Source: Sphingomonas sp.
Lineage (GTDB): Bacteria > Pseudomonadota > Alphaproteobacteria > Sphingomonadales > Sphingomonadaceae
Reading direction: 5' to 3'
DNA: 64,000 nucleotides
Assembly: GCF_017304635.1 (NCBI RefSeq)
Contig: NZ_JAFKMA010000002.1
Span: forward strand, 1 to 64,000
Shown: piece by piece, positions 21,448 to 46,803 of the stretch
How the letters are laid out: each line of letters begins with the position of its first letter
How positions within the stretch are numbered: position 1 is the first letter of the stretch
The notes under the pieces: generated by a model
Database searches by the model: none
Seen by the model: only the letters and a program-made list of their open reading frames with translations
What the model was told of the DNA's origin: nothing
Position numbers and translations under genes: made by a program

Positions 21448-22413
21448 TTAGGGTGCCGTGTGCGCTCCACCGACGCCGGGGATCATCGGCTTGATCGACA
21501 TCCGGCCCTGGCCGTCCGAAAACGATCCGGCCCGCCACAACAGGGTGATCGAGACGCGGCGGTTGCGCGGGTCGGCCGGGTCGTTCTCGATCATCGGCTC
21601 GCGGTCGGCGACGCCCTCGATCCGCCAGAAGCGCTGTTCGGGGGTGCCGCCCGACGCCAGCCGGCGGCGCGTCGCCTCGGCCCGGCCCGACGACAGCATC
21701 CAGTTGTTCATGGCATTGGGATCGCCATAGCCCAGGCTGTCGGTGTGTCCGCGGATCATGATCGGATTGTCGGTGTTGGCGATGGTCTGCGCGATCAGCC
21801 CGATCAGCTTGTCGGCCTCCGGCACCAGTTGCGTCGTGCCCAGCGCGAACATCGAATAATCGGCGTCGTCGACCAGATCGATGCGCAGGCCCTGATCGGT
21901 CTGGACGAAGCGGACATGGCTGGCCAGCTTGTTCAGCGGGGCCGCCTGCATCGCCGCCATCAGCCGGCGCTTCATCGCGTCGAAATTCTTGGCGTCCTGC
22001 ATCGCGATCTCGCGGTTCTTCATCGAACCCTTCTCGCCGCTGCCGACCTGTGCGCCGCCGGTCGCGCCCATCGGGATGGTCAGCGACTTGGTGCCGGTCT
22101 GCTGCGCGCGGTGCGGGTAATTGTCCTTGTCGGTGATCGACGACCCGCCCAGCAGCCCGTTCGACCCGGCCGAATTCTCCTTCAGCTTGACCAGCGTCGG
22201 GGTGAAATAGTCGGCGATGCCCTTGCGCTGCTTCTCGGTCGTCGCGCCGAGGATCCAGAGCAGCAGGAAGAACGCCATCATCGCCGTCACGAAGTCGGCA
22301 TAGGCGACCTTCCAGGCGCCGCCATGATGGCCGCCATGCCCCTCGATATAGATCTTCTTGACGATGACCTTCGGGGGTTGGTTGTTGCCGTGAGGGGCGC
22401 GCGCCGCGGCCAT
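21448..22413 (-). CDS. motB: Flagellar motor stator protein MotB
   Basis: Peptidoglycan-anchored stator subunit of 321 residues. A basic N-terminus is followed by the single helix with the proton-carrying Asp in YADFVTAMMAFFLLLWIL (~39-56). The C-terminal OmpA/MotB domain contains IMIRGHTDSLGYG and NNWMLSSGRAEATRR (~230-255), the peptidoglycan-binding signature. The ATG at 22413 has AGGAGC upstream. It follows motA on the same strand, separated by repeat copy B. Confidence 0.95.
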   Translation of the reverse strand: MAAARAPHGNNQPPKVIVKKIYIEGHGGHHGGAWKVAYADFVTAMMAFFLLLWILGATTEKQRKGIADYFTPTLVKLKENSAGSNGLLGGSSITDKDNYPHRAQQTGTKSLTIPMGATGGAQVGSGEKGSMKNREIAMQDAKNFDAMKRRLMAAMQAAPLNKLASHVRFVQTDQGLRIDLVDDADYSMFALGTTQLVPEADKLIGLIAQTIANTDNPIMIRGHTDSLGYGDPNAMNNWMLSSGRAEATRRRLASGGTPEQRFWRIEGVADREPMIENDPADPRNRRVSITLLWRAGSFSDGQGRMSIKPMIPGVGGAHTAP

Positions 22414-22438
22414 TTACGCGGCTCCTGACGGAGCCGAA

Positions 22439-22519
22439 CGGCACCGGCCCGCTCCCCCGCCCGACCGCCCAATCAGGGTACGATCGTGGGCGGTCGGGCG
22501 GGGGAGCGGGCCGGTGCCG
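22439..22519. repeat. Long inverted repeat, family R1 copy B (motA-motB gap)
   Basis: 81-bp palindromic element whose arms read CGGCACCGGCCCGCTCCCCC... Relative to copies A, C and E both arms carry the compensatory change CCACCC to CCGCCC and GGGTGG to GGGCGG. It lies 25 nt upstream of the motB start and so would form a strong stem in a motA-motB transcript. Confidence 0.95.
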
Positions 22520-22544
22520 GTCATCGGCGAGAGCCGATCAAATA

Positions 22545-23408
22545 TCACCGCCCGCGCAGCCCGTCGAACACCTCGGCGAAACCGGGCTGGTTGGCGTGGG
22601 CGATGCCGGAGCGGGCCGCCTCGATCACCAGCGGCTGCGGGTGGCCGTGCAGGCTCGCGATGATGATCTGCTTGACGACGTGGTAGATCGCGGCGTCGGC
22701 GTCGATCACCTGCTTCAGGCGCGTCGCGAGCGGGCCGACCATGCCGTAGGCGAGCAGCACGCCCATGAACGTGCCGACCAGCGCCGATCCGATCATCCCG
22801 CCCAGGATCGACGGCGGCTTGTCGATCGAGCCCATCGTCTTCACGACGCCGAGCACGGCGGCGACGATGCCGAGCGCGGGCAGCGCATCCGCGAGACCCT
22901 GCAACGTGCCCTGCGGTCCTTCGACGTCGTGGTGGTGCGTCTTGATCGCGTTATCCATCACTTCCTCGACCGCATGCACGTCGAGCGTGCCCGACGACAC
23001 CACGACCAAGCGCAGCGTGTCGGCGATCAGGTTGGTGAGGGTGTGGTCGGCGAGCAGCCGCGGATATTCGGCGAAGACGGCCGACGATTTCGGGTCCTCG
23101 ACATGCGGTTCGAGCGCGATCGGCCCTTCCATCCGCAGCATCTTCATTAACTTCGAGACGAGGAAGATGACGTCGAGATAGTCCTGCTTCTTGTACTTCG
23201 GACCCTTCAGCACCATGGCGACACCGCCGCCCAGCGCCTTCAGTTCCTTGCCCGAATTGCCGATGATGAGCGCACCCGCGGCGGCACCGCCGATGATAAT
23301 CATCTCGTGCGGGATCGCCTCCATGACGGGGCCGAGCGCGCCGCCGGTGAAGACGAAGCCGCCGAATACCATGCCGAGCAGAACAACGAGGCCGATCGCC
23401 GGAAACAT
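22545..23408 (-). CDS. motA: Flagellar motor stator protein MotA
   Basis: Four-helix stator subunit, 287 residues. Helix 1-2 pair at ~1-60 (FPAIGLVVLLGMVFGG, MIIIGGAAAGALIIG), a cytoplasmic loop with the charged region around 85-100 (FLVSKLMKMLRMEGPIALEPHVE) that contacts FliG, and helices 3-4 with the conserved PALGIVAAVLGVVKTMG and GTFMGVLLAYGMVGPLA. The ATG at 23408 has GGGGGA about 12 nt upstream. It is separated from flgL by a hairpin. Confidence 0.95.
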   Translation of the reverse strand: MFPAIGLVVLLGMVFGGFVFTGGALGPVMEAIPHEMIIIGGAAAGALIIGNSGKELKALGGGVAMVLKGPKYKKQDYLDVIFLVSKLMKMLRMEGPIALEPHVEDPKSSAVFAEYPRLLADHTLTNLIADTLRLVVVSSGTLDVHAVEEVMDNAIKTHHHDVEGPQGTLQGLADALPALGIVAAVLGVVKTMGSIDKPPSILGGMIGSALVGTFMGVLLAYGMVGPLATRLKQVIDADAAIYHVVKQIIIASLHGHPQPLVIEAARSGIAHANQPGFAEVFDGLRGR

Positions 23409-24430: not shown

Positions 24431-25780
24431 TCACCGGATATCGAGGATCGTCTGGATCGTGTCGCGCGCGACCTGGATCACGTGGCTGGTCGCGGCATAG
24501 GCTTGCTGGAAGCGCATCAGGTCGACCGCTTCGGTGTCGAGATCGACGCCGGACAGCGAATCGCGTGCGGTGACGGCGTTGCTGTGGATCGTGGTCTGCG
24601 CATCCGCCACCGACTTGCGCTGGGCAAGCGCGGAGGCATTGACCGTGGTCATGTCGACCACCGCATTCTCGTAATTGCCGCTGGTGCGCAGCGCCGCGAA
24701 ACTGGCGAGGTTGCTGTTGTCGCGCTGGCCGCCGCCGACCGCCGCCGCGGCAATCCCGCGCGGGTCGGTCATCACGGTCGAGACCTGGGCGGTACCCGCG
24801 CTGGTGTCGATCGCGAAGATCGCCGAACCGCTGTTGTTGTCGAGGTCGCGGCCCTGCGCCTGCGCGCCGTTCATGTCGCTGACGAACTGCTGGGCGATGC
24901 CCTGCAACTGGTTGCGCGCGTCGGCGATGCGTTGCGCCCCGTCGGCGATCCCGGCGAGCGCGCCGCCGACCGGCGTCATCGCATGCTGGTCCGCACCGCT
25001 CAGGACGTTGAAGGCGATCGTGCCGGAACTGTTGCGCGCATAGCCGACCGTCGCGGCGAAATTGCCGTCGACCAGCTTGGGTCCACCGCTGCCCCCGGCC
25101 TGGACGCTGGCGCGCCCGGCCTGGTCGTAGGTGACCGAGATATCGGTCACCGCGCTGATCTGTTCGAGCACCTGATCGCGCTGATCGAGCAACGCCGCCT
25201 TGCCGGCGCTGCCGTCGGGCGTGCGGCCGATGCCCTGGTTGATCTTCGCCAGCGTGTCGGTCAGCGAATTGAGGCTGGTAACCGTATCCCTGGTCATCGA
25301 ATCGACGTCGGCCGAAACCTGGTCGAGCGACGTGCCGGTCTGCGTAAACGCATCGGCGACGCCGCCGGCTGCCTCGAGCATCGTCGCGCGCGCCGCGGTC
25401 GAGGTCGGATCGCCCGCCAGCGTGGTCGACGCGGTGAAGAAGCTCGACAGCCGCGTGCCCAGCGCCGATCCGCCGAGCGAGCTGTTGATCCGGTCGAGCC
25501 ACGTCACGCTCGCCGACGTCTTGGCGAGGTCGGAGCCCGACGACAGCACCGCGGCCTGCTTGAACATGTCGCCCGCACGGCTGACGCCGATGACCGCGGC
25601 GCCTTCGCCGCTGCCGGTCGATTGCGAACTGACCGCGCCGATCGACGCGACTTCCTTGATGTTGGTCGTGCGGCGCGAATAGCCCGCGCTGCCCGCGTTC
25701 GCGATGTTCTCCGACACGGTGTTGAGCGCGAGCTGGTACGCCCTGAGGCCGCTCGCGCCGATCGCCAGCATGTCGCTCAT
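24431..25780 (-). CDS. flgK: Flagellar hook-associated protein FlgK (HAP1)
   Basis: 449 residues. The N-terminal rod/hook signature (AIGASGLRAYQLALNTVSENIANAGSAGYSRR, about 7-38) and the C-terminal helix VDLMRFQQAYAATSHVIQVA identify it. Length is shorter than the ~550 of enteric FlgK, the loss being in the middle surface domains. The start overlaps the flgJ stop (ATGA). Confidence 0.95.
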   Translation of the reverse strand: MSDMLAIGASGLRAYQLALNTVSENIANAGSAGYSRRTTNIKEVASIGAVSSQSTGSGEGAAVIGVSRAGDMFKQAAVLSSGSDLAKTSASVTWLDRINSSLGGSALGTRLSSFFTASTTLAGDPTSTAARATMLEAAGGVADAFTQTGTSLDQVSADVDSMTRDTVTSLNSLTDTLAKINQGIGRTPDGSAGKAALLDQRDQVLEQISAVTDISVTYDQAGRASVQAGGSGGPKLVDGNFAATVGYARNSSGTIAFNVLSGADQHAMTPVGGALAGIADGAQRIADARNQLQGIAQQFVSDMNGAQAQGRDLDNNSGSAIFAIDTSAGTAQVSTVMTDPRGIAAAAVGGGQRDNSNLASFAALRTSGNYENAVVDMTTVNASALAQRKSVADAQTTIHSNAVTARDSLSGVDLDTEAVDLMRFQQAYAATSHVIQVARDTIQTILDIR

Positions 25781-26154
25781 GATGTGGCGCTCCCGCTAGC
25801 GGCCGGGGTCGCGGCGGTCGGGTTGCCTGACGTCTGCAGGCCCTTTTGCGACTTCGCCAGGAAATCGGTCATCGCCTTGCCGATTCCGATCGGCTGGTGC
25901 TCCGCCATGCTCTGCGCGACGCGCTGGTCCTGCATGTCGCGGAACGTGTTCGAATTCTTCTGGTCGAACAGGCTGTCCTCGTCGGTGGTCAGCTTGGCCT
26001 GCCGCATCGACTTCATCATCATGCCGATGAACACCGCCTCGAACTTCTCCCCCGCCTTCTTGAGGTTGGTGGAGGAGCCGAGGCGGCTGGTGTCGCGCGC
26101 GATGCCGGCGGTCGGCGACGCGGCTGGCGATGGGGTGGCGGGAATGTCCGTCAT
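25777..26154 (-). CDS. flgJ: Rod-binding protein FlgJ, N-terminal domain only
   Basis: 125 residues covering only the rod-capping domain (LKKAGEKFEAVFIGMMMKSMRQA near 31-52, then the DxKNSNTFRDMQDQRVAQSMA segment). The C-terminal glucosaminidase of enteric FlgJ is absent; the lytic transglycosylase at 35271 probably supplies the wall-cutting activity, as in other alphaproteobacteria. Coupled by ATGA overlaps to flgI upstream and flgK downstream. Confidence 0.93.
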   Translation of the reverse strand: MTDIPATPSPAASPTAGIARDTSRLGSSTNLKKAGEKFEAVFIGMMMKSMRQAKLTTDEDSLFDQKNSNTFRDMQDQRVAQSMAEHQPIGIGKAMTDFLAKSQKGLQTSGNPTAATPAASGSATS

Positions 26155-32105: not shown

Positions 32106-32456
32106 TTATTCCCCCCGCAATGCGCGCGTGACTTGGTTGATGCGCCCGTTCAGGAACGCGAGCGTCGTCTGGTACTGGACCGCATTCTCCGCGAACGCGG
32201 TCTGTTCGGTCGACAGGTCGACGGTGTTGCCGTCGAGGCTCGGCTGCAGCGGTACGCGATAGAGCGTCGCGGCGCTGGTCGCGCCGTCGGCACCCATGCC
32301 GCCGTCGATCGATGCCAGCGCCTGGTGGAAATCGATGTCGCGCGCCTTGAACCCCGGGGTCGAGGAATTGGCGATGTTGGACGCCAGGATACCCATGCGC
32401 TGCCCGCGCACTTCCAGCGCCGCGCCGTGTATCCCGAACAGACTGTCGTCGGCCAT
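32106..32456 (-). CDS. flgB: Proximal rod protein FlgB
   Basis: First gene of the minus-strand flgBCDEFGH operon. 116 residues: IHGAALEVRGQRMGILASNIANSSTPGFKARDIDFHQAL (~9-47) is the rod-protein motif, followed by a short core and the C-terminal TTLAFLNGRINQVTRALRG. A sigma-54 promoter starts 37 nt upstream of the ATG. Confidence 0.96.
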   Translation of the reverse strand: MADDSLFGIHGAALEVRGQRMGILASNIANSSTPGFKARDIDFHQALASIDGGMGADGATSAATLYRVPLQPSLDGNTVDLSTEQTAFAENAVQYQTTLAFLNGRINQVTRALRGE

Positions 32457-32492
32457 GTGCCGTCCTCGCGTTAAATCCTGCGCGAGAGATCA

Positions 32493-32507
32493 GCAAAGGT
32501 CGTGCCA
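32493..32507 (-). promoter_or_regulatory. Sigma-54 (-24/-12) promoter of the flgB operon
   Basis: Minus strand TGGCACG-ACCT-TTGC, an exact match to the TGGCACG-N4-TTGC consensus with the GG and GC pairs 10 nt apart. Predicted start ~32481, 25 nt before the flgB ATG. Needs RpoN and an activator such as the one encoded at 42468. Confidence 0.88.
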
Positions 32508-32699: not shown

Positions 32700-32715
32700 T
32701 GGCCCGCCCCTTGCA
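32700..32715 (+). promoter_or_regulatory. Sigma-54 promoter of the MotA-like/flgA operon
   Basis: TGGCCCG-CCCC-TTGCA, one mismatch from consensus and exact 10-nt GG/GC spacing. The predicted start (~32726) falls at the first codon of the MotA-like gene, implying a leaderless or nearly leaderless mRNA. Confidence 0.75.
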
Positions 32716-32727
32716 GAACCCTCGCGC

Positions 32728-33387
32728 ATGATGACGCCTGACGCGCTTACCCCGTTCGTCGATCCTGCCGCGATCGCCATCGTCGCCGGCGGCACCGTGC
32801 TCGCCGCGCTGCTGCGCACGCCGCTCAGGGATTTCGGTCGCGCCATCGCCGCGCTCGCCACGCTGCCGCGTCGCGGGTTCGAGGCGACGCCGCTGGTCGA
32901 TCAGGCGGCGGCGCTCAACCGGATCGCCCGGCGGCACGGCGTCCATACGCTCGACCGGTCGGTGATCGCCGATCCCGACGTCGCCGCCGCCATCGCCGCC
33001 GCCGTCGACGGCGCCAGCCCCGCTGAGGTCACCTGCCTGCTCGACGAGCGCCGCCGCGCCCGCATCCTGCGCCACGCCGCCGCTGCCGACATGTGGGCGG
33101 GCATGGCCGAGGTCGCGCCGGCGATGGGCATGGTCGGGACGCTGATCGGGCTGGTCAAGATGTTCACCGCGATGACGGACCCCGCCGCGATCGGCGGCGG
33201 CATGGCGGTCGCGTTGCTGGCGACGCTCTATGGCGCGCTGATCGCGAACCTGATCGCGATGCCGATCGCGGTCCGCCTGCGCCGTCGCGCGCGCATTGAG
33301 GCGGAGGAGCGCGCGCGCCTGGTCGCGCCGCTCGCCGCGCTCGCCGAACAGGGCCGGCCGCGCAATCCGGTCGCGGTGGCGGCATGA
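32728..33387 (+). CDS. Reduced MotA-like (MotA/TolQ/ExbB family) protein
   Basis: 219 residues, shorter than MotA. Three hydrophobic helices are seen: PAAIAIVAGGTVLAALL (~13-29, matching MotA helix 2), APAMGMVGTLIGLVKMF (~130-146, helix 3) and AVALLATLYGALIANLIAMPIAV (~155-177, helix 4). MotA helix 1 is missing. The PAxGMVGTLIGLVKM and GxAxALLATLYGAL motifs are good MotA signatures. ATG ATG at 32728/32731, no SD. Overlaps the MotB-like gene (ATGA). Probably an alternative or auxiliary stator half. Confidence 0.8.
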   Translation: MMTPDALTPFVDPAAIAIVAGGTVLAALLRTPLRDFGRAIAALATLPRRGFEATPLVDQAAALNRIARRHGVHTLDRSVIADPDVAAAIAAAVDGASPAEVTCLLDERRRARILRHAAAADMWAGMAEVAPAMGMVGTLIGLVKMFTAMTDPAAIGGGMAVALLATLYGALIANLIAMPIAVRLRRRARIEAEERARLVAPLAALAEQGRPRNPVAVAA

Positions 33388-33887
33388 CCGATCCGCTCGA
33401 TCCGCCGCCGGCCAGGCCGCTCTGGCTATGGACGCTCGCCGATCTGGCGCTGCTGCTGGTCGGGTTCTTCGTCCTGATCCAGGCGACCGATCGCCGTGCA
33501 TTGGCAAAGGGCTTGCGTGAGGGGTTCGGCGGCGTGGTCGAGACGCCGGCGCCGATCCCGGTCGCGTCCGTCGTCGTCGCCAGTCCCCCCGGATCCGCGA
33601 CGCTGAACGATCCGGCACAATTGACGAGCTTCGCCGCGAGCGCCCTGCGCGATCCGCGCGTGTCGCTGCGCATCGTCGGCAGCGCGGCGGCGGCGGGCGA
33701 CGTCGATCCTGCCACCGGCAGCGCGGCCTTGCTCGCGAGCGACCGTGCGCGCGCCGCCGCCGCCTACCTCATCGCGCACGGCACGCCCGCCGGTCGCATC
33801 GCCATCGCCGCACCCGGCACCGGGCGCAGCGGCGTGCTCGTCACCCTCAGCTTCACCGGCGATCCCGCCCAGGAGAAACAGAAATGA
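33384..33887 (+). CDS. Reduced MotB-like/OmpA-like protein
   Basis: 167 residues. A short N-terminus leads to one helix, LWTLADLALLLVGFFVLIQA (~15-34), with an Asp (in LADL) at the position of the MotB proton-binding Asp. The C-terminal half keeps OmpA-like features: RVSLRIVGSA and LLASDRARAAAAYLIAHGTPAGRI, though shorter than usual. It is translationally coupled to the MotA-like gene before and flgA after. A minimal stator partner is the best reading; a non-motor proton-channel role is possible. Confidence 0.72.
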   Translation: MTDPLDPPPARPLWLWTLADLALLLVGFFVLIQATDRRALAKGLREGFGGVVETPAPIPVASVVVASPPGSATLNDPAQLTSFAASALRDPRVSLRIVGSAAAAGDVDPATGSAALLASDRARAAAAYLIAHGTPAGRIAIAAPGTGRSGVLVTLSFTGDPAQEKQK

Positions 33888-34423
33888 TCCGCGCTCTTGC
33901 CGTCGTGCCCGCGTTGCTGCTGGCCGGCCCTGCGCTCGCACAGAGTTTCCAGAGCACGGCGTTGCTCGACAAGGCCGTCGCCGGCTTCACCGGCCAGCCG
34001 ATCGGCAGCGACGGCGGCGCGCGCACTGCGGTCGATACGCGGCTGAAGCTCGCCGCCTGCCCGATGGTCGCGCTGAACTGGCGCACCCCGGCGCACGATG
34101 CCGTGGTGGTCAATTGCCCAGACCCGAGCTGGCGGATCTTCGTGCCCGTGCGCATCACCGCGCCGGTGCCGACCCCGGCGGGCCCGCTGCCCGCTTCTCC
34201 CACCGCCGTCGCCGCTCCGCCCAAGGGACCACCGGTCATCAAGCGCGGCGACCCGGTCAGCCTGACCGCCGGCACCGCCGGCTTCTCGGTCACGCGCGAC
34301 GGCATCGCCGCCAGCGACGCGGCGGCCGGCGCGCGCGTGCTGGTCAAGGTCGAGGACAACAAGCCGCCGGTCCAGGCGATCGCGGTCGAGCCCGGCAAGG
34401 CCGTGATTCCGGGCGGCGAATAA
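33884..34423 (+). CDS. flgA: P-ring assembly chaperone FlgA
   Basis: Periplasmic chaperone for FlgI, 179 residues. Signal peptide (VVPALLLAGPALAQ), then a divergent N-terminal half (LKLAACPM with the conserved Cys) and the SAF-like C-terminal domain: VIKRGDPVSLTAGTAGFSVTRDGIAASDAAAGARVLVKV and a final VEPGKAVIPG. The start overlaps the MotB-like stop (ATGA). Confidence 0.88.
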   Translation: MIRALAVVPALLLAGPALAQSFQSTALLDKAVAGFTGQPIGSDGGARTAVDTRLKLAACPMVALNWRTPAHDAVVVNCPDPSWRIFVPVRITAPVPTPAGPLPASPTAVAAPPKGPPVIKRGDPVSLTAGTAGFSVTRDGIAASDAAAGARVLVKVEDNKPPVQAIAVEPGKAVIPGGE

Positions 34424-35215: not shown

Positions 35216-35231
35216 TGGCACGCCTTTTGCT
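35216..35231 (+). promoter_or_regulatory. Sigma-54 promoter of the transglycosylase-flhA-fliA operon
   Basis: TGGCACG-CCTT-TTGCT, exact consensus and spacing. Predicted start ~35242, 29 nt before the ATG at 35271. Confidence 0.88.
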
Positions 35232-35270: not shown

Positions 35271-36206
35271 ATGGGCGTCGAGGCGATTTCAGGGTCTGGT
35301 GGTGTCCGTACGGCGATCGCGAGCGCGAGCCGGGCGACGGGCATCGACTTCGACTATCTGCTCGGCCAGGCGCAGTTGGAAAGCGGGCTGAACCCGACCG
35401 CACGCGCCGGCACCTCGTCGGCCGCCGGGCTCTACCAGTTCATCGACCAGTCGTGGCTGGGCATCATCAAGCAGCATGGCAGCCAGTACGGGCTCGGCTG
35501 GGCGTCGGACGCGATCACGCGGTCGGGCAATCGCTGGGTCGTGAACGATCCGGCGATGAAGAGCGCGATCCTCAACCTGCGCAGCAATCCCGACGTGTCG
35601 GCGACGATGGCCGCGCAATATGCGTCCGACAACAAGGGCGCGCTGGAGAATGCGCTGGGCCGCAGCGCGACCGGTACCGATCTCTACATGGCGCATTTCC
35701 TGGGGCTGGGCGGAGCACGCTCGTTCCTGCGCACGATGCAGTCGAACCCGGGAGTCAGCGGGGCGGCGATGTTCCCGGCGGCGGCGCGCGCCAACCGCTC
35801 GATCTTCTACGACGCCGGCGGGAATGCCCGCAGCCTCGGCGACATCTACCAGCGCTTCGCCGCCAAGCTCGACAAGGGCGCGGCGAGCGTCGGCGCGACC
35901 GGCCTTGCGTCGGATACGCTCAGCGGCGCGGGCGCGATGCCCGGTCGCGGCGGCGATTTCGAGACCGCGCGCGCGAACTTCGCGCAGCTCGCGTCGCTCG
36001 GCACGGTCGACGGCGCGACCGTCATCACCGGCAGCGGCGACAATGCGTCGAGCGCGCAAAGCTGGGCGCGCGCCGCGCTTGCGCGGGCCGGCGTCAACAC
36101 CGGCACGGCGGCGACGCCGGACAATGTCAATTCGGTCAATCTGCTGCGCCCGACGCCTGACACGGCGCGGCTGGCGTACATGATGCTCGCGACGATGGGG
36201 GCCTGA
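35271..36206 (+). CDS. Flagellum-associated lytic transglycosylase
   Basis: 311 residues. The first ~170 contain a lysozyme-like SLT fold: FDYLLGQAQLESGLNPTARAGTSSAAGLYQFIDQSWL, where Glu in QLESGL (~41) is the catalytic acid and GLYQF the second motif. No signal peptide, so export via the flagellar apparatus or FlgJ contact is likely, as for SltF of Rhodobacter. The C-terminal ~110 residues are low-complexity, possibly for FlgJ binding. It leads the flhA-fliA operon. Confidence 0.87.
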   Translation: MGVEAISGSGGVRTAIASASRATGIDFDYLLGQAQLESGLNPTARAGTSSAAGLYQFIDQSWLGIIKQHGSQYGLGWASDAITRSGNRWVVNDPAMKSAILNLRSNPDVSATMAAQYASDNKGALENALGRSATGTDLYMAHFLGLGGARSFLRTMQSNPGVSGAAMFPAAARANRSIFYDAGGNARSLGDIYQRFAAKLDKGAASVGATGLASDTLSGAGAMPGRGGDFETARANFAQLASLGTVDGATVITGSGDNASSAQSWARAALARAGVNTGTAATPDNVNSVNLLRPTPDTARLAYMMLATMGA

Positions 36207-40583: not shown

Positions 40584-41204
40584 ATGAAACTGACTGCACC
40601 GCTTGTCGCGGCTTGCTTTGCCATGGGCGCGTTGGCGACGCCGGCTTCGGCTTCCACCATCGTCAACACGGGTGCCGGCCCGAACGTGAATGGCGGCTAT
40701 GTCGTGAGTTCCGGTCAGTGGCTGGGCGGCAAGTTCCAGGTCGGTGCGGCAACCACGATCACCGACGTGCTCGGCTGGATCACCTCCTTCTCGGGGAGCT
40801 ATACCGCCTCAATCTACAGCGACAGCAACGGCTTGCCGAACGCATCGCTTTATTCGGCCAATTTCACGCCGTCGAACACGTCGCAGCCTGCTTGGTACGG
40901 CGTGTCCGGCCAGGCGTGGAACGTCGCCGCGGGGACGTATTGGGCCGTGTTCTCGGCGGGCACCGGCAACGGCGCGATGCCGATCGGCGTTGCGAACCCG
41001 TTGTCGGCCTATGCCGGCTGGCATTCGGGGCAGGGCTTCTACGATGCCGGCAACCTGAACATCGGGTTCCAGATCCTGGGCGATGCGACGGTCGCGGCCG
41101 TGCCCGAGCCGGCGATCTGGGCGATGATGATGCTCGGCTTCGGCGCGATGGGCTATACCCTGCGCCGTCGCGCGAAGGTGACGACGCGCGTCCGCTTCGC
41201 CTGA
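40584..41204 (+). CDS. PEP-CTERM sorting-domain exported protein
   Basis: 206 residues. Signal peptide ending SAS (~24), a beta-rich middle resembling an extracellular adhesin or jelly-roll, and the C-terminal tail VPEPAIWAMMMLGFGAMG followed by basic RRRAK: the PEP-CTERM signal recognised by exosortase. GGGGAC lies 8 nt before the ATG. Likely surface or matrix protein; no exosortase is in the window. Confidence 0.88.
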   Translation: MKLTAPLVAACFAMGALATPASASTIVNTGAGPNVNGGYVVSSGQWLGGKFQVGAATTITDVLGWITSFSGSYTASIYSDSNGLPNASLYSANFTPSNTSQPAWYGVSGQAWNVAAGTYWAVFSAGTGNGAMPIGVANPLSAYAGWHSGQGFYDAGNLNIGFQILGDATVAAVPEPAIWAMMMLGFGAMGYTLRRRAKVTTRVRFA

Positions 41205-44119: not shown

Positions 44120-45796
44120 ATGGCCACACAACTCACTCCGATGCCCATCGAGGGCGAAGGCTTCGCCAACCCGGTGAAGCAGCTGGGCGGCCTGCTGGGC
44201 CAGCCCGCGGTCAAGCGCAGCCTGCCGATGATCCTGATGGTGGGATTGATCGCCAGCGCCGCGCTGGCGTGGTTCATGCTGTCGACGCCGACGCAGAAGA
44301 CGCTGTTCTCGGGGTTGCCCGACAGCGACAAGGCGGCGGTCATCAACGCGTTGAAGACGGGCGGGATCACCGGTCGGCTCGACGAGGCGACCGATGCCGT
44401 GACGGTCAACGAGGGCGATTATTCGAAGGCGCGGATGCTGCTGGCGGCACAGGGCCTGCCGAAGTCGGCGCCGGCCGGCTATGCGATCCTCGACAACATG
44501 CCGATGGGCACCAGCCGCGCGGTCGAGGGCGAACGCCTGCGCCAAGCGCGCGAGACCGAGCTGGCGCGTTCGATCGAGGATATCGACGCGGTCGCCGAAG
44601 CGCGCGTGCACTTGGCCGTGCCGGAAAACACCGTGTTCGTCCGCGACAATGCCGCGCCGTCGGCCAGCGTCGTGCTGAAGCTGCAGGGCGGCCGCTCGCT
44701 CTCCGACGCGCAGGTCGGGTCGATCGTCAACCTCGTCGCCTCGTCGGTGCCGGGGATGAAGCCGGAGAACGTCACGATCGTCGACCAGGCGGGCGCCTTG
44801 CTGTCCAAGCCGGACGGCGCCGGCAGCGCGAACGACGCGCGCGTGCGCTTTCAGACCCAGGTCGAGCAGAAGTATCGCGACCAGTTGACCACGTTGCTGA
44901 CCCCGCTGGTCGGCGCGGGCAACTTCACCGCGCAGGTGTCGGCCGACGTCAATCTCGACGATGTCAGCTCGACGCGCGAAAGCTACGACAAATCGGGCAG
45001 CCTGCGCGCCGAACAGGGCGCATGGACCGGCAAGGACGGCACGACCGGGGCGCCCGGCGGCATTCCCGGTGCGCTGTCGAACATTCCGCCGGGACCGACC
45101 ACGGTGACGCAACCCAACGCGCAACCGACACCCGGTGCGACCCCGGCTCCCGGTGCCACGCCGACCCCGGCCGCGACGCCGACCGTGCCCGACACTGCCA
45201 AGACGCAGGACAGCTATGCCCGCGCCTACGACCTCGGTCGCGAAGTGTCGGTGACGCGCAACGCGCCCGGCGGGCTCAAGCGGCTGTCGGTGGCGGTGGT
45301 GCTGCGCGACGTCGACGGGTCGAAGCCGCGCACCCCGGCCGAGATCCAGCAGCTGACGCAATTAGTGACCTCTGCGGTCGGTGCGGACACGACGCGCGGC
45401 GATCAGGTGACCGTCATCAGCCGGCGTTTCGCGGCTGGCACGAGCGCCGACGCCGGCCCCAAATTCTACGAAAGCAGCTGGTTCTCGATGGTGGTGCGCA
45501 ACGTGACGGCGGTGGTCATCGCGCTGCTGGTGCTGATCCTGGGCGTCCGTCCGCTGTCGAAGGTGCTGCTGAAGAAGCGCGACGAGGCCGCACGCGGCGG
45601 TCGCGATCTGGCGGCGCTCGGCATCGGTGCGCCGATGGGGTCGGCCGGCGCCATCTCCGCACCGGTCAGGCTCGACGCGCTCGAAAGCGGCAACAATCTC
45701 GACGACCGGCTCGGCAACGTCCGGGGCTTCACCCGGGACAACCCGGCACGCGCCGCCCTGGCGGTCCGTGACATGATAAAGGCGGACGCACGCTGA
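44120..45796 (+). CDS. fliF: Flagellar MS-ring protein FliF
   Basis: 558 residues with two transmembrane helices (~39-59 and ~460-480). Ring-building motifs: LFSGLPDSDKAAVINALKTGGI, YSKARMLLAAQGLPKS, ETELARSIEDIDAVAEARVHLAVPENTVFVRDNAAPSASVVLKL, then ENVTIVDQAGALLS. The C-terminus (DNPARAALAVRDMI) binds FliG. A Pro/Thr-rich low-complexity stretch (~320-355) lies in the beta-collar region. Overlaps fliG by 1 nt. Confidence 0.97.
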   Translation: MATQLTPMPIEGEGFANPVKQLGGLLGQPAVKRSLPMILMVGLIASAALAWFMLSTPTQKTLFSGLPDSDKAAVINALKTGGITGRLDEATDAVTVNEGDYSKARMLLAAQGLPKSAPAGYAILDNMPMGTSRAVEGERLRQARETELARSIEDIDAVAEARVHLAVPENTVFVRDNAAPSASVVLKLQGGRSLSDAQVGSIVNLVASSVPGMKPENVTIVDQAGALLSKPDGAGSANDARVRFQTQVEQKYRDQLTTLLTPLVGAGNFTAQVSADVNLDDVSSTRESYDKSGSLRAEQGAWTGKDGTTGAPGGIPGALSNIPPGPTTVTQPNAQPTPGATPAPGATPTPAATPTVPDTAKTQDSYARAYDLGREVSVTRNAPGGLKRLSVAVVLRDVDGSKPRTPAEIQQLTQLVTSAVGADTTRGDQVTVISRRFAAGTSADAGPKFYESSWFSMVVRNVTAVVIALLVLILGVRPLSKVLLKKRDEAARGGRDLAALGIGAPMGSAGAISAPVRLDALESGNNLDDRLGNVRGFTRDNPARAALAVRDMIKADAR

Positions 45797-46803
45797 TGAA
45801 CGCTCCGATGCGCAGCTACACCGGCGTCGAACGCGCCGCGGTGCTGATGATGCTGGTCGGCGAGGAGGAGGCGGCCGCCATCCTCCAGAAGCTCGACCCC
45901 GAAGAGGTGCGCCAGCTCGGCAAGGCGATGTTCGCCGTGGCCGAGGTCGGCGAGGACCAGGTCGGCGACGTGCTCGACGATTTCGTCGGACGCGCACGCG
46001 ACCGCAACTCGATCGGGTTCGACCCCAAGCCGATTATCGAGAACGTGATGAACCGCGCGCTCGGCCAGGAAAAGGCCGACAGCGTGCTCGCGCGGATCAC
46101 CCCGCCCGAAGCTGCGTGCCAGATCGACCTGCTCGACTGGATGGAAGCCGGCGAGATCGCGACGATGATCGAGAAGGAGCATCCGCAGATCGCGGCGGTG
46201 GTGATCGCCAACCTCGATCCCGCGATCGCGGGTCAGGTGCTCGAACTGCTGCCGGAGACGATCCAGCCGGACATCCTCCACCGCGTCGCGCGGCTCGGGC
46301 CGATCACGCCGGAGGCGGTCGAGACGCTGCGCACGATGCTCGCCAATCGCACGGGCCACGCCGGCAAGTCGGCCGGCGTCACGCTGGGCGGCACGCGCGA
46401 GGCGGCGAAGATCCTGTCGGGCGCGCGCAAGACGACCGAACAGCGCGTCATGCCCAAGCTGTTCAAGATGGACCGCGACGTCGCGAAGGCGATCGAGGAA
46501 GCGTTGTTCGTGTTCGAGAATCTGCTCGACATGGACGACAAGAATCTCGGCACGCTGATCCGCAACATCGACAGCGACGTGCTGACGCGCGCGCTGAAGG
46601 GGGTCGACGAGAGCATCCGGTCGCGCTTCCTGGGTTGCATGTCGGCGCGCGCCGCCGACGGCATCCGCGACGAGATGGAAGCGCGCGGGCCGATGAAGCT
46701 CAGCGAAGTGCTCGAAGCGCAGAAGATCATCATCCAGCAGGCGCGCGCGCTGGCGAAGGACGGCACGATCATGATGGGCGCGGGCGACGACGATTATGTC
46801 TGA
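45796..46803 (+). CDS. fliG: Flagellar motor switch protein FliG
   Basis: Rotor torque protein of 335 residues. N-terminal GVERAAVLMMLVGEEEAAAILQKLDPEEV, the middle EHPQ motif (EKEHPQIAAVVIANLDP, ~119-135) and the C-terminal torque helix with charged residues (LTRALKGVDESIRSRFLGCMSARAADGIRDEMEARGPMKLSEVLEAQ). It contacts MotA and FliM. Overlaps fliH by 8 nt. Confidence 0.97.
   Translation: MNAPMRSYTGVERAAVLMMLVGEEEAAAILQKLDPEEVRQLGKAMFAVAEVGEDQVGDVLDDFVGRARDRNSIGFDPKPIIENVMNRALGQEKADSVLARITPPEAACQIDLLDWMEAGEIATMIEKEHPQIAAVVIANLDPAIAGQVLELLPETIQPDILHRVARLGPITPEAVETLRTMLANRTGHAGKSAGVTLGGTREAAKILSGARKTTEQRVMPKLFKMDRDVAKAIEEALFVFENLLDMDDKNLGTLIRNIDSDVLTRALKGVDESIRSRFLGCMSARAADGIRDEMEARGPMKLSEVLEAQKIIIQQARALAKDGTIMMGAGDDDYV

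Follow-up and report, generated by a model that had tools for sequence, protein, structure and literature searches.

What does a second, stripped-down pair of stator-like genes do in the flagellar operon of a bacterium that also encodes a full-size stator? The question is raised by a stretch of 64,000 nucleotides from Sphingomonas sp. (assembly GCF_017304635.1, contig NZ_JAFKMA010000002.1, positions 1 to 64,000), referred to throughout as the window. A preliminary description of the window, made from the letters alone, placed such a pair at 32728-33887, and read it as an auxiliary stator, a regulator of ring assembly, or a proton channel of another kind. The two products are designated MotA' and MotB' here, and together the mini pair.

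The locus

The coordinates given for the mini pair proved right, and the arrangement recurs across the family. The genes motA' and motB' overlap by 4 bp, as do motB' and flgA, all on the + strand (Table 1). The full-size motA/motB genes reported at 21448-23408 hold up as well: they lie 10 kb from the mini pair in a Sphingomonas-like flagellar locus, with MotA1 scoring 335 bits against its profile (cut-off 303.8) and MotB scoring 69.5 bits for MotB_plug and 49.2 bits for OmpA, each above cut-off. The window's genome contains four PF01618 genes, namely MotA', MotA1, TolQ (246 bits, above cut-off), and one further ExbB/TolQ-type protein.

Table 1. Positions of the mini pair, its neighbours, and other flagellar features in the window.
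Feature	Position	Strand	Remarks
motA'	32728-33387	+	219 aa; PomA/MotA-type A subunit; retains TM2-4 and the cytoplasmic domain but not TM1
motB'	33384-33887	+	167 aa mini B subunit; Asp20 in its single TM helix; plug-like segment; OmpA-like domain eroded
Asp20 codon of MotB'	33441-33443	+	Asp in 110/110 aligned family members
flgA, short form	33884-34423	+	179 aa; SAF domain not matched at E<=1
flgB, divergent neighbour of motA'	32106-32456	-	same arrangement in 110/113 loci
MotA1, full-size, main stator A subunit	22545-23408	-	profile match over cut-off
MotB, full-size, main stator B subunit	21448-22413	-	MotB_plug and OmpA matches over cut-off
sigma54-type motif	32700-32715	+	12 bases from motif end to motA' start codon
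sigma54-type motif	32492-32507	-	in front of divergent flgB
sigma54-type motif	35216-35231		further match
fliG	45796-46803	+	equivalents of E. coli R281 and D288 kept; D289 is E
rod-cap-sized gene	25777-26154		product just 125 aa, matching the rod-cap part in size; we take it to be FlgJ
lytic-transglycosylase-like gene	35271-36206		separate gene, before flhA
small secreted-looking protein	40584-41204		in the flagellar cluster, adjoins flagellin; C-terminal tail presumably PEP-CTERM-like

MotA' and its missing helix

MotA' matches the Pfam family MotA_ExbB (PF01618) at 83 bits, and the Pfam profile scan gave no match in it to MotA_N (PF20560). The NCBIfam PomA model aligns to it from model position 20 of 254, and a profile of seven MotA' sequences aligns to solved PomA over residues 20-233; TM1 alone is thus missing, in agreement with the earlier claim that the MotA-like protein lacks helix 1 and keeps helices 2-4. 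The gene starts just before TM2. A missed upstream start was considered and ruled out, given that TM1 was not found in any of the 112 readable MotA' loci (112/112), 60 upstream codons included. N-terminal lengths rest on script-chosen start codons. In two loci (L050 and L051) there is a hydrophobic stretch abutting TM2, which is not a separate helix.

Membership of the ExbB/TolQ group was also rejected, as MotA' scores just 16.1 bits for ExbB (cut-off 206.2) and 14.4 bits for TolQ (cut-off 221). Against the profile models, MotA' scores 142 bits for PomA, 37 for MotA1, and 16 for ExbB; among the distinct PDB chain sequences listed for the profile of seven MotA' sequences at E<=10, 10 of 11 are PomA/MotA and none is ExbB or TolQ. 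A phylogeny, suggested in the preliminary description as a check, places MotA' in a single clade (support 100/99) apart from MotA1 and ExbB/TolQ; the tree holds 56 of 111 MotA' rows, sampled as every second row plus the window, and its row named own_ExbB is the genome's TolQ. Profiles, PDB matches, and tree all set MotA' within the PomA/MotA superfamily and apart from ExbB/TolQ. Judged by sequence, the ancestry of MotA'B' is that of a flagellar stator.

Outside the family, 48 relatives were fetched, 20 of them out of 70 hits in the order and 28 out of 132 hits in the class, and every one has TM1. Since MotA' forms one clade, TM1 would most simply have been lost once in the MotA' lineage. The full-length PomA-type MotA of sister families is retrieved by the same profile and carries TM1 in 20/20 loci fetched. 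In seven sister-family loci (L143, L145, L146, L148, L152, L155, and L160), this motA lies before flhA, its neighbours being what we take to be fliN-like and flbD-like genes; a motB-like gene does not directly adjoin it there.

Ion path and selection

Asp20 of MotB' is conserved in 110/110 rows, while P131, T138, G169, and P179 of MotA' are invariant in 111/111 rows and T166 is T or S in all 111 (111/111). These residue counts leave out two rows of MotA', namely L021, which lies at a contig end, and L024, whose frame is broken; L042 is without MotB' (contig end). The signature of an ion-driven A5B2 motor, an Asp in the B helix with conserved Pro/Thr in the final two helices of A, is therefore present, and a retained ion path in MotA'B' is supported by these predicted channel residues. 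In the frame-broken row (from genome G276), MotA' is split across two reading frames and is likely a broken copy; that genome has two MotA1 matches.

The mini pair is evolving under purifying selection: among five close relatives, pairwise dN/dS is 0.15-0.28 for motA' and 0.19-0.44 for motB', with 0.17-0.47 for flgA. Because it recurs across a bacterial family and is under purifying selection, the arrangement is beyond chance. Distances in MotA' and MotB' covary across 57 loci (partial r 0.46, with flgB, flgC, and the transglycosylase as background). Covariation with FlgA was not seen in the 57 loci, the partial r being 0.04 for MotA' and -0.10 for MotB'.

Wall anchor and rotor face

For MotB', the preliminary description reported 167 residues, an Asp in the helix, and OmpA-like features. 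Length and Asp stand, but the OmpA-like part is degraded: it matches OmpA at 28.3 bits (cut-off 27.2) over profile positions 4-81 of 98, its C-terminal part is lost, and the Asp of the GHTD motif is gone, with R121 kept and the Asp retained in several relatives. The plug-like segment aligns to PomB, and the MotB_plug match is 17.2 bits in the window, under the cut-off of 24, and 37.4 bits in one relative. In another subclade, no Pfam match at E<=10 was found for MotB' in the two members scanned (2/2). Wall anchoring by MotB' is accordingly predicted to be reduced.

The cytoplasmic region of MotA' aligns to PomA without large gaps. At the FliG-facing position of PomA R88 (E. coli MotA R90), 34 of the 111 MotA' rows have a basic residue (28 R, 6 K), compared with all 24 full-length relatives (23 R, 1 K) and all 28 class loci (27 R, 1 K; read by eye); the rows are related and these counts are hence not independent. 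An acidic residue (D or E) occupies the other contact position (PomA E96/E. coli E98) in 95/111. The window's own MotA' retains both FliG contacts (R68, R69, and D76), and the window's FliG has the partner residues R281 and D288, with E for D289. One MotA' subclade, with membership taken from the tree or by nearest identity, has W143 in 57/57 and R97 in 55/57 (PomA numbering). As such subclade-specific residues are conserved, the cytoplasmic domain of MotA' is not simply degenerating. Rotor contact of MotA' is nonetheless predicted to be reduced.

Occurrence across the family

A profile search of 298 same-family genomes gave a match in 136. From these, 110 loci were fetched, of which 107 are of the mini type, the window included; the other three are TM1-bearing PomA-type (G007 and G052) and MotA1 (G210). 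Among the 26 matches outside this fetched set, G056 is apparently PomA-type, judged by position. The pair is also carried by six named relatives (five labelled Sphingomonas and one unclassified proteobacterial MAG), with flgA next in 6/6; together with the 107 mini-type genomes, these make up the set of 113 MotA' loci. A search of plasmids returned 19 records, the top two of which, when read out, were full-length pairs.

FlhA is found in 135/136 and MotA1 in 133/136 of the genomes with a match, the 136 including at least three non-mini matches. The three without MotA1 are the fragmented assemblies G143 and G263, and G036. The mini pair as sole main stator was rejected as an explanation, these being the only cases without MotA1 and G036 having no match to flagellin. 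In the near-complete genome of G036 (loci L090 and L167), rod-type genes are still present alongside FlhA and the mini pair, but neither flagellin nor MotA1 gave a match, and its PF01618 genes number just three. Its flagellum may be decaying, or may be reused for something else.

Conversely, FlhA and MotA1 are present with no pair match in 55/298 genomes. The first genome screen capped scoring at 10 candidates per genome, so such absences are no proof in themselves. MotA' was absent in 20/20 loci fetched from those 55, with flgA, flgB, and flgC together in only 15. Flagellin is present in 16/16 pair-less genomes tested, and, given also the 55 genomes with FlhA and MotA1, the mini pair is dispensable for flagellation. 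One pair-less genome, G012, nests among pair-bearing rows in a tree of flagellar genes (nearest fork with SH-aLRT 95), and so looks like a case of loss. Co-occurrence with MotA1 and the existence of flagellated pair-less relatives mean that the pair is accessory, and the auxiliary status proposed for it is in this sense upheld.

The flgA neighbourhood and regulation

Coupling to flgA, the remaining earlier claim, is borne out for gene order but not for co-evolution with FlgA, as the covariation values above indicate. The flgA gene is next on the same strand in 111/113 MotA' loci, the remaining two being contig ends. In nine loci with a long stretch from motA' to the end of flgA, a shared third gene was not seen (ORFs by eye). 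The ChapFlgA match of the window's FlgA is restricted to profile positions 63-120 of 122. With start codons chosen by script, FlgA is <=192 aa in 108/108 pair loci measured and in 11/16 pair-less loci; short FlgA was thus discarded as an exclusive marker of the pair. The FlgA of pair-less locus L138 is, by comparison with the short FlgA of the window, 241 aa.

FlgT and FlgP are stator-scaffold ring proteins. In four pair-less genomes (G085, locus L128; G201, L138; G242, L139; and G017, L122), an LPP20-family (FlgP-like) gene and flgT stand beside a long flgA, with flgB on the other side in three. A single-sequence search found no relatives of FlgT or LPP20 in the 113 pair loci. The slot between flgB and flgA seems to be exchangeable, taking different motor accessory modules.

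The window contains four sigma54-type matches against 0.64 expected; three are given in Table 1 and the fourth is inside motA'. The motif precedes motA' in 15/110 loci, all from the window's subclade, compared with 0/220 control windows; in most of the family, the exact motif is missing before motA'.

Comparison with known systems

The closest known system is PomAB (Vibrio; TGI4-type), the best profile and PDB match of MotA'. Between MotA' and the PomA of V. parahaemolyticus, identity is 33%; PomB likewise has an Asp-bearing TM helix, and the plug-like segment of MotB' aligns to it. In contrast to PomAB, the mini pair has no TM1, a B subunit of 167 rather than 315 aa, an often replaced FliG-facing Arg, an eroded OmpA part, and a place with flgA and a second full stator nearby. 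With MotA1/MotB (TGI5-type, E. coli-like), it has superfamily and flagellar locus in common; MotA', however, shares 19% identity with the window's MotA1 and lies in a separate clade. ExbBD/TolQR share with the mini pair an A subunit of three helices and a B subunit of similar size (E. coli ExbD, 141 aa), a resemblance in workings only, whereas the sequence ancestry of MotA' is PomA/MotA and the genome encodes its own TolQ. In the dual-stator systems of B. subtilis and Aeromonas, both pairs are full-size stators, whereas in the window's organism one is stripped. These systems (MotAB/MotPS and PomAB/PomA2B2, respectively) similarly have two A/B pairs per flagellum.

PMC12505986 holds flagellar stators (FIT) to be structurally uniform and defines them by four diagnostic traits: a square fold of four helices in A, an interface for torque generation that has four or more helices in A, a plug and linker following the B helix, and, in B, an expanded OmpA-type domain that binds peptidoglycan. 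Of these four, the mini pair lacks two, namely the square fold, since TM1 is absent in 112/112 readable loci, and the expanded OmpA-type domain, as MotB' is 167 aa in total. The strings 'Sphingomon', 'flgA', and 'TM1' are absent from the main text of PMC12505986. No description of the mini pair appeared among the matches listed in the open-access literature, which is a weak negative.

Possible roles of the mini pair

The reading we favour, tentatively and at somewhat less than an even chance, is that MotA'B' may be a reduced derivative of PomAB, driven by ions and serving the primary motor as an accessory, stator-like unit, with MotA1/MotB as the main torque generator. It is the most economical reading because it accommodates stator ancestry, an intact ion path, reduced contact with rotor and wall, occurrence with flagellar genes, and coexistence with MotA1. 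Such a unit would presumably comprise five A subunits around two B subunits. Ion flow via the Asp20/Pro131/Thr166/Pro179 path would turn MotA' around MotB', the cytoplasmic domain of MotA' may touch the C-ring weakly or in some states only, and the short periplasmic part of MotB' might dock near the membrane (P-ring, MS-ring, or MotAB) and not far out on peptidoglycan. The unit could tune or supplement torque, or help to install or keep stators. Purifying selection, the covariation of MotA' with MotB', the contacts retained by the window's MotA' and FliG, and the flgT and FlgP-like genes next to flgA in four pair-less genomes speak for this reading; the often non-basic FliG-facing position, the MotB' proteins lacking any Pfam match, the lost GHTD Asp, and the flagellated pair-less genomes count against it.

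The same reductions can be read differently. A stator ancestor may have been reshaped to a three-helix A subunit and a TolR-sized B subunit, so that the ion gradient drives periplasmic work in the manner of Tol/Exb, for example P-ring (FlgI) assembly with FlgA, or tasks on peptidoglycan around the rod. This is possible, if rather unlikely. The constant neighbourhood of flgA, the resemblance in build to ExbBD/TolQR, the non-basic residue at the FliG-facing Arg position in 77/111 MotA', the eroded anchor of MotB', and the bias towards short FlgA in pair loci all speak for it; yet neither subunit co-evolves with FlgA, short FlgA also occurs where the pair is missing, the ancestry of MotA' is not ExbB/TolQ, and among the window's neighbouring genes no TonB/TolA-like partner is apparent. 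That a lineage of stators has gone back to a three-helix build like that of ExbB/TolQ, giving a flagellum-dedicated, Tol-like energiser of basal-body building or maintenance and not of torque, is likewise unlikely. MotA1 alongside the pair in nearly every genome with a match, the reduced anchor, and the altered rotor face would suit a non-rotating regulator, that is, a docking competitor or gate occupying stator sites or limiting MotAB recruitment, but the invariance of the ion-path residues in 110-111 sequences points to ion flow and makes this improbable. Decay to a relic is very improbable: the one frame-broken copy, the apparent loss in G012, and the persistence of the pair in G036 with neither a flagellin nor a MotA1 match are in its favour, but dN/dS of 0.15-0.44, invariant channel residues, and retention over many genera argue against it. 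Set against the three readings first offered, profiles, alignment, residues, and tree support descent from a stator and retention of the ion path.

Significance

The mini pair breaks two diagnostic stator traits yet sits among flagellar genes in 107 examined genomes of one family. It can serve as a natural experiment on which stator parts ion flow, rotor contact, and anchoring require, and it gives experiments a way into the evolutionary route that links stators of four helices with Exb/Tol motors of three.
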